From Bacteroidales bacterium (lineage in GTDB: Bacteria; Bacteroidota; Bacteroidia; Bacteroidales; UBA932), in assembly GCA_016290835.1 (NCBI GenBank), contig JAEEVG010000012.1, positions 1 through 48,524 on the forward strand: a DNA stretch of 48,524 nt. The letters run 5' to 3'. Below the pieces are notes generated by a model. That model had not been told where the DNA came from, ran no database searches, and saw only the letters and a list, made by a program, of their open reading frames with translations. How positions within the stretch are numbered: position 1 is the first letter of the stretch; every line of letters begins with the position of its first letter. The position numbers and the translations under genes were made by a program. Below, one piece after another: positions 40,028-41,725 of the stretch.

Positions 40028-40576
40028 TCAGAGCAACACGGAGACGCCGATGGCGAGCAATACCGCTCCGCCGACGATCTCGGCCCAGCGGCCGAAACGC
40101 GCGCCGATGGCCTTTCCGCCCCGCAGGCCCACCATAACGGACAGGGCCGTGATCACGAACACCGAGACCAGCAGGGGCAGGAAGCCGGCCAGGGACACGT
40201 CCTCCATCGACTGCGCCACGCCCACGGCGAGCGCGTCGATGCTCGTCGCGACGCCGCCGACGAGGACATTGCGCCAGCCGTTCAGGTCGCGCACCTCCTC
40301 CTTGCCGCGGATACCCTCCAGCAGCATCGAGCCGCCGACATAGAGCAGCAACAGGAAAGCGATCCAGTGGGAAATCTTCTCGACGAGGCCCACAAAGAGA
40401 TAGCCGAAGGCCCAGCCGGCGGCGAGCAGGCCCGACTGGATCACGGCGAAAGCCAGGGCGACGCCCAGGATGGAGCGCCAGCGCACGCTGCGCAGCGTCA
40501 CGCCCGAGCAGAGCGAAACAGCCAGGCAGTCCGCACACAGCGACGCCGCGACCAGGATGGCTTCCAAAATGTTCAT
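40028..40576 (-). CDS. mntP: Manganese efflux pump MntP
   Basis: 182 residues and six hydrophobic segments arranged as two repeats. Each repeat carries the conserved acidic motif: CADCLAVS near residue 14 and SIDALAVG near 112, the metal pathway aspartates of MntP (YebN). Exports excess Mn(II). In E. coli it is controlled by MntR and a yybP-ykoY riboswitch; neither is visible here. The stop lies one base from the recR stop on the other strand, with no terminator between. Confidence 0.93.
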   Translation of the reverse strand: MNILEAILVAASLCADCLAVSLCSGVTLRSVRWRSILGVALAFAVIQSGLLAAGWAFGYLFVGLVEKISHWIAFLLLLYVGGSMLLEGIRGKEEVRDLNGWRNVLVGGVATSIDALAVGVAQSMEDVSLAGFLPLLVSVFVITALSVMVGLRGGKAIGARFGRWAEIVGGAVLLAIGVSVLL

Positions 40577-40596
40577 TTTCTTCGAAAAACGGACAC

Positions 40597-40644
40597 AAAA
40601 GTAACGACAAAGCGCGAATTATTCAATTATTCTTCCTACTTTTG
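40597..40644. promoter_or_regulatory. Divergent -7 boxes of mntP and corA
   Basis: Minus-strand TACTTTTG (40604-40597) for mntP and plus-strand TACTTTTG (40637-40644) for corA, exact inverted copies with 32 bases between. No good -33 element for either. The corA transcript should begin near 40650. Confidence 0.55.
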
Positions 40645-40647
40645 CAA

Positions 40648-40727
40648 GCTTGCTTCTCCGTGACGCGAGCTATCCCGTAAGTTTAACCCCCTTCCGACGA
40701 TTGTGCCGGGACCAACCAGGAAGGAAG
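40648..40727 (+). promoter_or_regulatory. Candidate pseudoknotted regulatory leader of corA
   Basis: GCTTGC (40648-40653) can pair with GCGAGC (40665-40670). After it two helices interleave: TCCCG (40673-40677) with CGGGA (40707-40711), and CCTTCC (40690-40695) with GGAAGG (40719-40724). This is the order of an H-type pseudoknot. The last strand is the Shine-Dalgarno-like sequence just before ATG 40728, so folding would hide it. Seen directly: the complementary segments. Inferred: folding and regulation. Confidence 0.5.
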
Positions 40728-41681
40728 ATGATCAAGATTTTCTACAGACGAGGCGGCGGGATTGCCGTCTGCCAGTCCGAAACGGAGTTTGCTGCTATCG
40801 GCAAAGAAAATGTCCTCTGGATAGACCTCCTTCAACCGACAGGAGAGCAGAAGAGGGCCGTCGAGTCGTTCCTCGGCACGGAGATCCAGAGCCGGGCCGA
40901 AGCGGAGGAGATCGAGAGCTCCTCCCGTTTCTACGAAGAGGACGGCGTCATTTTCGCCAACACCAATTTCCTCTCCCCCGCCGATGACGAGATGCTGATG
41001 GATCCCGTCTCCTTCATCCTGTCCGGCGGCATCCTCACGACCGTCCGCGAGATTCCCCTGCGTTCGCTGGACACCCTCCAGCTCAAGATCCAGGCCCTGC
41101 CCGACCAGTTCCCGGACGGCTTCACCACCTTCGTGGAGATCATGGACAAGCGCGTGGACCTCGATGCGGATATCGTAGAGCTGATCTCCAAGGATGTCTC
41201 GCAGTTCAGCAAGCGCATCAACCAGAAAGAGGATATCAACGAGGAGTTCCTCCTGGATATCAACCAGTTGCAGGAAAACGCGATGATCGTCCGCGAGAAC
41301 GTCGTGGACAAACAGCGCCTCATCTCCAACATCCTCAAGAGCAAACGCGGCCCCCGGGACCCGGAGCTGCGGGGCGATCTGGGGATCATCCTGCAGGATA
41401 TCGCCTCCCTGATCAACCACGTCAACTTCACCTTCGAGCGGCTCGAGTATCTGCAGGACACCGTCCTGGGCATCATCAACCTCGACCAGAACAACATCAT
41501 GAAAATCTTCACCTTCGTGTCGTTGCTGCTGATGCCGGCCACCCTCGTGGCGAGTTTCTACGGGATGAACGTCACCCTCCCCTTCGCTGACAAATGGTGG
41601 GCGTGGCTCGTTCTCTTCCTGCTCATGGCGGCCCTGGTGGTCAGTATCTGGATCATCTTCAAGCGAAAGAGAATGCTTTGA
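40728..41681 (+). CDS. corA: CorA-family magnesium/divalent cation channel
   Basis: 317 residues from ATG 40728; a longer frame begins in the leader. A large cytoplasmic alpha/beta and long-helix domain is followed by two C-terminal transmembrane helices, the first ending in the selectivity motif YGMN (GMN at 279-281). CorA forms a pentameric Mg2+ channel gated by cytoplasmic Mg2+. It is preceded by AGGAAGGAAG, an unusually strong Shine-Dalgarno-like sequence for this genome, within a leader that can fold. A terminator follows the stop. Confidence 0.94.
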   Translation: MIKIFYRRGGGIAVCQSETEFAAIGKENVLWIDLLQPTGEQKRAVESFLGTEIQSRAEAEEIESSSRFYEEDGVIFANTNFLSPADDEMLMDPVSFILSGGILTTVREIPLRSLDTLQLKIQALPDQFPDGFTTFVEIMDKRVDLDADIVELISKDVSQFSKRINQKEDINEEFLLDINQLQENAMIVRENVVDKQRLISNILKSKRGPRDPELRGDLGIILQDIASLINHVNFTFERLEYLQDTVLGIINLDQNNIMKIFTFVSLLLMPATLVASFYGMNVTLPFADKWWAWLVLFLLMAALVVSIWIIFKRKRML

Positions 41682-41687
41682 GAGAAT

Positions 41688-41725
41688 AAAAAAGGGGTGC
41701 GGCCCAGCGGTCGCACCCCTTTTTC
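41688..41725. terminator. Bidirectional intrinsic terminator between corA and fba
   Basis: GGGGTGCG (41694-41701) pairs with CGCACCCC (41712-41719), flanked by five A on the left and five T on the right. It serves the two convergent genes. Confidence 0.9.

Follow-up and report, generated by a model that had tools for sequence, protein, structure and literature searches.

The Mg2+ channel gene corA in a window of 48,524 nucleotides (the whole stretch of DNA analyzed, from a 2.66-Mb, 112-contig genome) is preceded by a structured leader RNA that probably acts in cis as a translational control element, pairing the loop of its 5' hairpin (P1) with codons of corA itself in a pseudoknot, carrying a local hairpin (P2) with a Shine-Dalgarno (SD) masking module, and putatively responding to Mg2+. 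Comparison with related genomes established P1, P2, the loop-to-coding pairing, and the specificity for corA in the genomes searched; masking of the SD was supported in part, and we infer that the element affects translation, in which direction it does so, and that Mg2+ is the signal. These findings add a corA-specific regulatory RNA family to the Bacteroidota.

Genomic context of the corA leader

The leader lies between mntP, on the minus strand, and corA, with the following features by position in the window.

40028-40576, minus strand: mntP, putative manganese exporter gene (Pfam Mntp)
40637..40644, plus strand: putative promoter -7 box TACTTTTG, taken to be of the TAnnTTTG type, immediately 5' of P1 (constant distance to P1)
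40647..40671, plus strand: P1, the 5' hairpin, stem 40647-40653/40665-40671 and loop 40654-40664 (covariation; varied complementary stems with a common loop)
40656..40661, plus strand: P1 loop hexamer CUCCGU, 5' strand of the long-range pseudoknot (comparative evidence)
40673..40677, plus strand: UCCCG, 5' strand of helix 1 of the first-pass annotation (CCCG seen only together with P1, and not in all such species)
40690..40695, plus strand: anti-SD strand CCUUCC, overlapping the 5' strand of P2 (fold, coupling, rebuilding in other lineages)
40692..40711, plus strand: P2, local hairpin UUCCGAC/GCCGGGA with an A.C mismatch, strands 40692-40698/40705-40711 (covariation, strand coupling)
40719..40724, plus strand: SD GGAAGG, able to pair with 40690-40695 (fold, coupling, rebuilding in other lineages)
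40728..41681, plus strand: corA (Pfam PF01544 CorA, E 1.6e-47)
40782..40787, plus strand: ACGGAG, corA codons 19-20, 3' strand of the long-range pseudoknot (kept pairs; codon and amino-acid constraint)

The promoter box, which we assign to the TAnnTTTG type, stands at a constant spacing from P1 throughout the 47-row P1 alignment, whose rows had all been selected for having such a box. No ATG occurs within 40645-40727, and a 6-codon GTG-to-TAA frame at 40660-40680 has a start codon that, by eye, is not retained in relatives. Among 88 loci (L001-L090), mntP was found in the fetched stretch of up to 1500 nt 5' of corA at 41, in the same direction at 29 and divergent at 12. A G+C-rich inverted repeat with runs of A and T on its flanks, seen by eye 3' of corA at 41688-41725, could be a candidate terminator for both strands.

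The 5' hairpin and its pairing with corA codons

The 5' hairpin that the first-pass annotation had drawn was borne out by covariation. Across its seven pairs, 95.1% of cells were paired and five pairs had changed on both sides in an alignment of 47 of the 58 P1 stretches, all selected for UCCGU in the loop, so that this alignment is no measure of loop conservation. The proportion of paired cells and the covariation score were each equaled in 0/500 shuffles and the count of pairs changed on both sides in 31/500, and slid registers left just 9-47% of cells paired. A script found a hairpin with a UCCGU loop in 111/164 leaders, built on 37 distinct stem strings, some of which are one stem cut at different lengths. 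The leader region was no more stable than shuffled sequence (z -0.14), so the support comes from comparison and not from energy.

The P1 loop carries the hexamer CUCCGU (40656-40661), whose complement ACGGAG lies at corA codons 19-20 (40782-40787); this pairing is absent from the first-pass annotation, whose region of interest (40648..40727) ended before the partner. All six pairs form in 121/132 corA genes with the loop motif and at least five in 131/132, these genes being defined by a UCCG(U/C) hexamer in the first 34 nt of the leader and at least 61 nt of gene, irrespective of the hairpin itself; the remaining 71 genes were scored as lacking P1, although a few have variant loops. At loci outside the discovery set (L091 and above, partly related), six pairs form in 72/80 and at least five in 79/80. 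At the register of the loop hexamer, 111/132 genes have the exact complement in their first 61 nt, compared with no more than 3/132 at any of eight downstream shifts, 40 and 30 genes at two overlapping upstream shifts into which the pairing of a U-loop clade extends, and no more than six genes at any other shift up to eight. NUCCGU occurs within 125 nt upstream of the gene at 56 loci, at a few of them outside P1, and 45 of these loci have the exact complement among the first 290 nt of the gene, vs. nine expected from codon shuffles. The isolated 6-bp duplex has a predicted energy of -7.8 kcal/mol, and a point against the pairing is that predicted folds leave the target unpaired only a little more often than the sequence around it (0.45 vs. 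0.40, 73 genes).

By these comparisons, the conserved interleaved helix that characterizes an H-type pseudoknot is present between the P1 loop and the coding sequence. Since this helix is formed by loop and codons, the pseudoknot connects the 5' hairpin to the coding sequence and encloses the SD and AUG, and it is in this form that the earlier proposal of a pseudoknot of some kind in the corA mRNA holds.

Joint variation of loop, target, and codons

Loop and target combinations at codons 19-20 (site 54) included CUCCGU/ACGGAG in 68 genes, GUCCGU/ACGGAU in 10, and AUCCGU/ACGGAU in three, the sixth pair varying among C-G, A-U, and G.U, while in another clade of 40 genes a UUCCGU loop pairs with ACGGAA at codons 9-11 (site 25). 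The imperfect cases comprised GUCCGU/ACGGAA, AUCCGU/ACGGAA, and CUCCGC/ACGGAG, with two genes each, plus five singles. In genes lacking P1, ACGGA was present at the first site in 8/71 and at the second in 13/71.

Many of the counted genes are related and the counts are not independent, making tree contrasts the fairer measure. For 112 loci with 250 nt or more of gene sequence, a quick tree was built that excluded the target codons; 20/109 of its inner branches were well supported. The sixth loop base and its partner agreed in 3/3 well-supported independent contrasts (p 0.25, the contrasts being too few to reach 0.05), and presence of P1 agreed with presence of the target in a mean of 5.8/8 contrasts with none opposite (median p 0.03). 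The U loop and site 25 gave two well-supported contrasts, with 0.5 agreeing on average and none opposing. The P1 loop and its coding target appear to co-evolve, and docking appears to have moved to another corA site in one clade, a change of site read mainly from that clade because the contrasts number only two.

As judged across these genes, codon choice in corA follows the leader RNA. Thr19 is encoded by ACG in 88/90 genes with P1 and 11/22 without (background 109/435), Glu20 by GAG in 70/70 C-loop genes (background 459/843), and Gly10 by GGA in 41/43 U-loop genes, 3/19 other P1 genes, and 19/51 genes without P1 (background 92/351). Residues 19-20 are TE or TD (Thr-Glu or Thr-Asp) in 86/89 genes with a C, G, or A loop vs. 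14/71 genes lacking P1. Codons and amino acids that follow the loop of a leader RNA offer a clean test case for a regulatory RNA shaping a protein-coding sequence.

The local hairpin P2

The hairpin P2 was supported in an alignment of 60 leaders hand-picked from 88 representatives, with 79.8% of cells paired (0/500 shuffles as high), 5/7 pairs changed on both sides (1/500), and a covariation score matched by 8/500 shuffles; a register slid by +2 gave six pairs changed on both sides, yet only 25.7% of cells paired. In a closer alignment of 39 hand-picked leaders, one pair had changed on both sides. Coupling between the two strands gave z -8.6, -7.5, -7.3, and -7.1 over four thinning levels with 0/5000 permutations as good, in a set for which 164 of 175 leaders were retained (those without a clear P2 being dropped), three more were set aside, and P2 positions were assigned by hand for nine leaders plus others in the coupling test. 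The stem is wholly replaced by GAAGG/CCUUC in L294, CGGCGC/GCGCCG in L295, and UUCUGAC/GUCAGAA in L160, and the column pair of the A.C mismatch is G-C in 21/60 sequences, A-U in two, G.U in one, and no standard pair in 36. With both P1 and P2 covarying, the corA leader is conserved and structured, as the first-pass annotation had supposed. A nested outer helix adjoining P2 and sharing none of its bases was unsupported in strand-coupling permutations.

Two separable modules are apparent, one made of P1 and its target, the other of P2 and the SD strand. One clade (e.g., L009, L012, and L013) lacks P1 and the target and retains P2, two leaders (L051 and L064) have P1 and the target with no recognizable P2-like hairpin, and another (L070) has P1 without P2 and without the full target.

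In some species the P2 loop reads CGACUGG and is complementary to CCAGUCG at corA codons 15-17 (coding positions 45-51; e.g., L088, L232, and L239), a duplex with a predicted energy of -10.4 kcal/mol. CCAGUC was found within coding positions 37-63 in genes of 51/55 leaders with a GACUGG loop vs. 51/108 others, and codon 17 is TCG in 51/55 vs. 10/108 species, to which kinship may contribute. A single well-supported independent contrast, with 0.5 agreeing on average, makes the link suggestive only, and this second loop may dock beside the P1 loop in those species.

Possible masking of the SD and the pseudoknot first proposed

Strong SDs are rare in this genome according to the first-pass annotation, and the window agreed, with one among 33 likely genes and a 4-mer in 5/33 (non-overlapping ATG frames of at least 150 codons). 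The annotation had further proposed a helix that buries the SD of corA (40690-40695 with 40719-40724). This helix can form and is present in the minimum-energy fold, contiguous pairing of at least five between the anti-SD and SD regions can be drawn in 103/164 leaders, and strand coupling was z -2.9, -2.3, -1.6, and -0.2 over the four thinning levels. It was rebuilt with other letters in two distant lineages, L160 (AACGUUUCU with GGAGACGUU) and L317 (CUCGUUC with GGACGAG), where about 1 in 1000 shuffles was as good in each case and the leader's own 3' region was the best of 36 for its anti-SD strand. Column counts on the broad alignment equaled those of shuffles (289/500 as high), and p < 0.05 was reached in 11/36 representatives and p < 0.01 in two, several being relatives. 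A test with swapped partners (93 matched of 94 representatives, of 108, with L090, L082, L071, L168, and L247 excluded) gave -3.4 for the own SD pairing of 26 leaders outside the two window-like types, weaker than the -5.1 and -3.9 of swapped partners. By this evidence the SD helix is coupled in and near the clade of the window and not family-wide, so the proposed burial of the SD is supported for that clade and the two distant lineages and not as a general feature.

In the first-pass annotation, the SD helix was one half of a possible ligand-responsive H-type pseudoknot resembling SAM-II and preQ1 riboswitches, with UCCCG pairing to CGGGA as helix 1. The letters had been read correctly (TCCCG 40673-40677 with CGGGA 40707-40711; CCTTCC 40690-40695 with GGAAGG 40719-40724), the window and most close relatives allow both helices to be drawn, the SD helix is kept within the clade, and helix 1 reached z -1.84 at the weakest thinning (172/5000 permutations as good). 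At stronger thinnings, however, its coupling was unclear (z -0.74, -0.98, and +0.15), and in 39 sequences its 90.3% of paired cells (36/500 shuffles matching) included no pair changed on both sides and one pair broken in 8/39. Its 3' strand is that of the covarying P2. Homologues without a pairing strand, which the annotation itself had named as evidence against its reading, were found for helix 1: among 164 leaders that all have P2, CCCG (40674-40677 and relatives) occurs in the junction of 69/125 with the P1 motif and 0/39 without, tying it to P1 and not to P2, although a few leaders lacking CCCG could still pair as helix 1 through G.U. A covariance-model search against 4227 Rfam 15 families, SAM-II and preQ1 included, gave no gathering-level match at the leader, and at E <= 10 one match alone (E 8.3) over 40450-40850; the annotation, which could not find the conserved bases of SAM-II and preQ1, was right to assign no known family. 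The SAM-II/preQ1-like topology loses its support together with helix 1, and a slim chance is left to this pseudoknot.

A leader of two hairpins with the SD masked by nested pairing, in P2 or the SD helix, would be enough for a switch, and the complementarity of loop and codons could be a by-product of protein conservation, the target lying in a conserved part of CorA. The target residues, however, are free to vary where P1 is missing and almost invariant alongside a C-, G-, or A-loop P1, silent positions are nearly fixed as well, and the sixth base, apparently also the site, shifts together with the loop, leaving this account improbable. An inverted repeat immediately 3' of a promoter box could also be a DNA operator at the transcription start, bound by a metal regulator, with P1 not acting as an RNA hairpin. 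Arms that vary yet stay complementary around a conserved centre (in rows chosen for UCCGU) are the opposite of what an operator would show, and the centre tracks the coding sequence, making an operator very improbable. Pairing that serves mainly to protect the mRNA 5' end or govern decay, or that acts in trans between two corA mRNAs, is unlikely and yet carries more weight than these: P1 directly behind the promoter box places it near the mRNA 5' end, and complementarity alone cannot separate cis from trans, nor translation from decay. Against it, a maskable SD in a genome where strong SDs look rare points indirectly to translation.

Proposed mechanism of corA control

Translational control of corA by the leader, with the P1 loop docked on corA codons, is likely on the comparative record. 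Its likeliest role would be repression in the closed state, given an SD that can be masked in a genome with seemingly few strong SDs. The corA mRNA would start with P1, and its 7-bp stem, a first loop of two nucleotides (UU), and a 6-bp long-range stem between the loop hexamer and codons 19-20 would form a well-proportioned H-type pseudoknot. Judging by loop lengths in the sequence, its third loop would span about 110 nt and contain P2, the SD, and AUG. P2 and the adjoining pyrimidine strand, able to mask the SD, would be a second module. Initiation and early elongation would be hindered with both modules closed, and corA would be translated with both open. A point against the mechanism is that the target lies 54 nt inside the gene and alone would not cover the start site.

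Tertiary pairing of this kind is usually stabilized by Mg2+, and for that reason the clamp would be expected to close, and CorA synthesis to fall, at high Mg2+. Gene identity and the general Mg2+ need of such folds make Mg2+ a plausible signal. A full Mg2+-sensing clamp with the gene's own coding sequence as part of the sensor, in which the loop docks when Mg2+ is plentiful, the SD and AUG are enclosed, and the channel is turned off, is a tentative and rather doubtful extension; if true, docking has bent corA codon choice and even CorA amino acids. Mg2+ homeostasis in uncultured gut and rumen bacteria becomes testable with a short reporter.

Distribution of the leader RNA

The corA gene was present in 185/200 genomes of the genus, which is probably Cryptobacteroides-like. 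In the upstream regions fetched, the leader stands directly behind a TAnnTTTG box in many species; others in the genus have only a very short stretch before corA, or no leader at all, and no such RNA. Among named records, the leader core was seen in Bacteroidales and Bacteroidia MAGs, Candidatus Cryptobacteroides avistercoris and fimicaballi included, which is the basis for the probable assignment of the genus. A whole-leader covariance model matched 188/400 genus genomes at E <= 0.01, with two matches each in G028 and G191 and one in the others among the matches listed, and 59 of 60 matches fetched by place were followed by the CorA N-terminus, the other lying at a contig edge. A P1-only model matched 52/121 genus genomes at E <= 0.1; the compared matches at E < 1e-3 lay just upstream of corA by eye, two of them on contigs with a cut or split corA, and elsewhere in the window's own genome its best other match had E 2.8. 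A pattern scan of contigs gave 37 stretches, of which 31 were corA leaders (one, L144 at a contig end, by its letters) and six came from other groups with corA not nearby. Within the genomes searched, the matches place this leader RNA as corA-specific and nearly always present once per genome.

In 299 genomes of the family, the whole-leader model matched 38 at E <= 0.1, every match at E <= 0.01 being inside the genus of the window, and a P2 model matched 19/249 with one outside the genus (G309, E 5e-4). By these searches the leader RNA is limited, among the family genomes covered, to one Candidatus Cryptobacteroides-like genus. Nine whole-leader matches outside the genus (E 0.012-0.084) were on contigs other than that of the same genome's corA, and the P2 match in G309 was read as chance because corA is on another contig there; the adjoining frame was aquaporin-like by eye.

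Relation to known leaders

Leaders of other transport and ribosomal-protein genes share some of these properties, and a corA leader RNA in Bacteroidota was not found in the open-licence literature, including the available portions of PMC2864571 and PMC11109978. The corA motif of Gammaproteobacteria, a riboswitch candidate with 325 representatives all reported from that class, is likewise a structured leader directly before corA and is a suspected sensor of Mg2+, Co2+, or some other divalent metal (PMC6429828). Its description, in the part available, makes no mention of loop-to-coding pairing and sets it apart from the present leader at the level of description (PMC6429828). Genus restriction, a Mg2+ transporter gene, and an SD and AUG inside the structure are shared with the mgtE motif, a candidate riboswitch of Thioalkalivibrio, which belongs to another gene and phylum and, in the portion seen, has its SD and AUG at the base of a large imperfect P4 stem (PMC11109978). 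Pseudoknots in ribosomal-protein mRNAs control translation in the bL20 operon (long-range), for uS4 (alpha operon), and for uS15 (rpsO), with those of uS4 and E. coli uS15 including the ribosome-binding site; these are described in the accessible text as protein-repressor sites, whereas here a transporter mRNA would fold onto its own codons, with no protein ligand known (PMC10931766).

The corA gene of E. coli and Salmonella is also preceded by a 5' leader RNA, which adopts two alternative folds and responds to intracellular Mg2+ via translation of corL and Rho-dependent termination (PMC11552253). In contrast to the corL leader as outlined in the available part of that source, the present leader is about 80 nt long, has no ATG-started upstream ORF in the window, and uses the coding sequence as one pairing partner (PMC11552253). 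Different arrangements were observed in two sister genera. In g15, a short upstream ORF lies just before corA, the first 17 residues of which (MISVLNIKFVKTSPRER) are identical in L351-L354 and similar in L349; its DNA is the same in L351 and L352 over the stretch compared and differs by silent changes in L353 and L354, and it may encode a leader peptide with a role like that of corL. In g16 (L343 and L344), the corA leader is of a different kind, in which CCUCGAG/CUCGAGG could, by eye, mask GAGG before the start codon.
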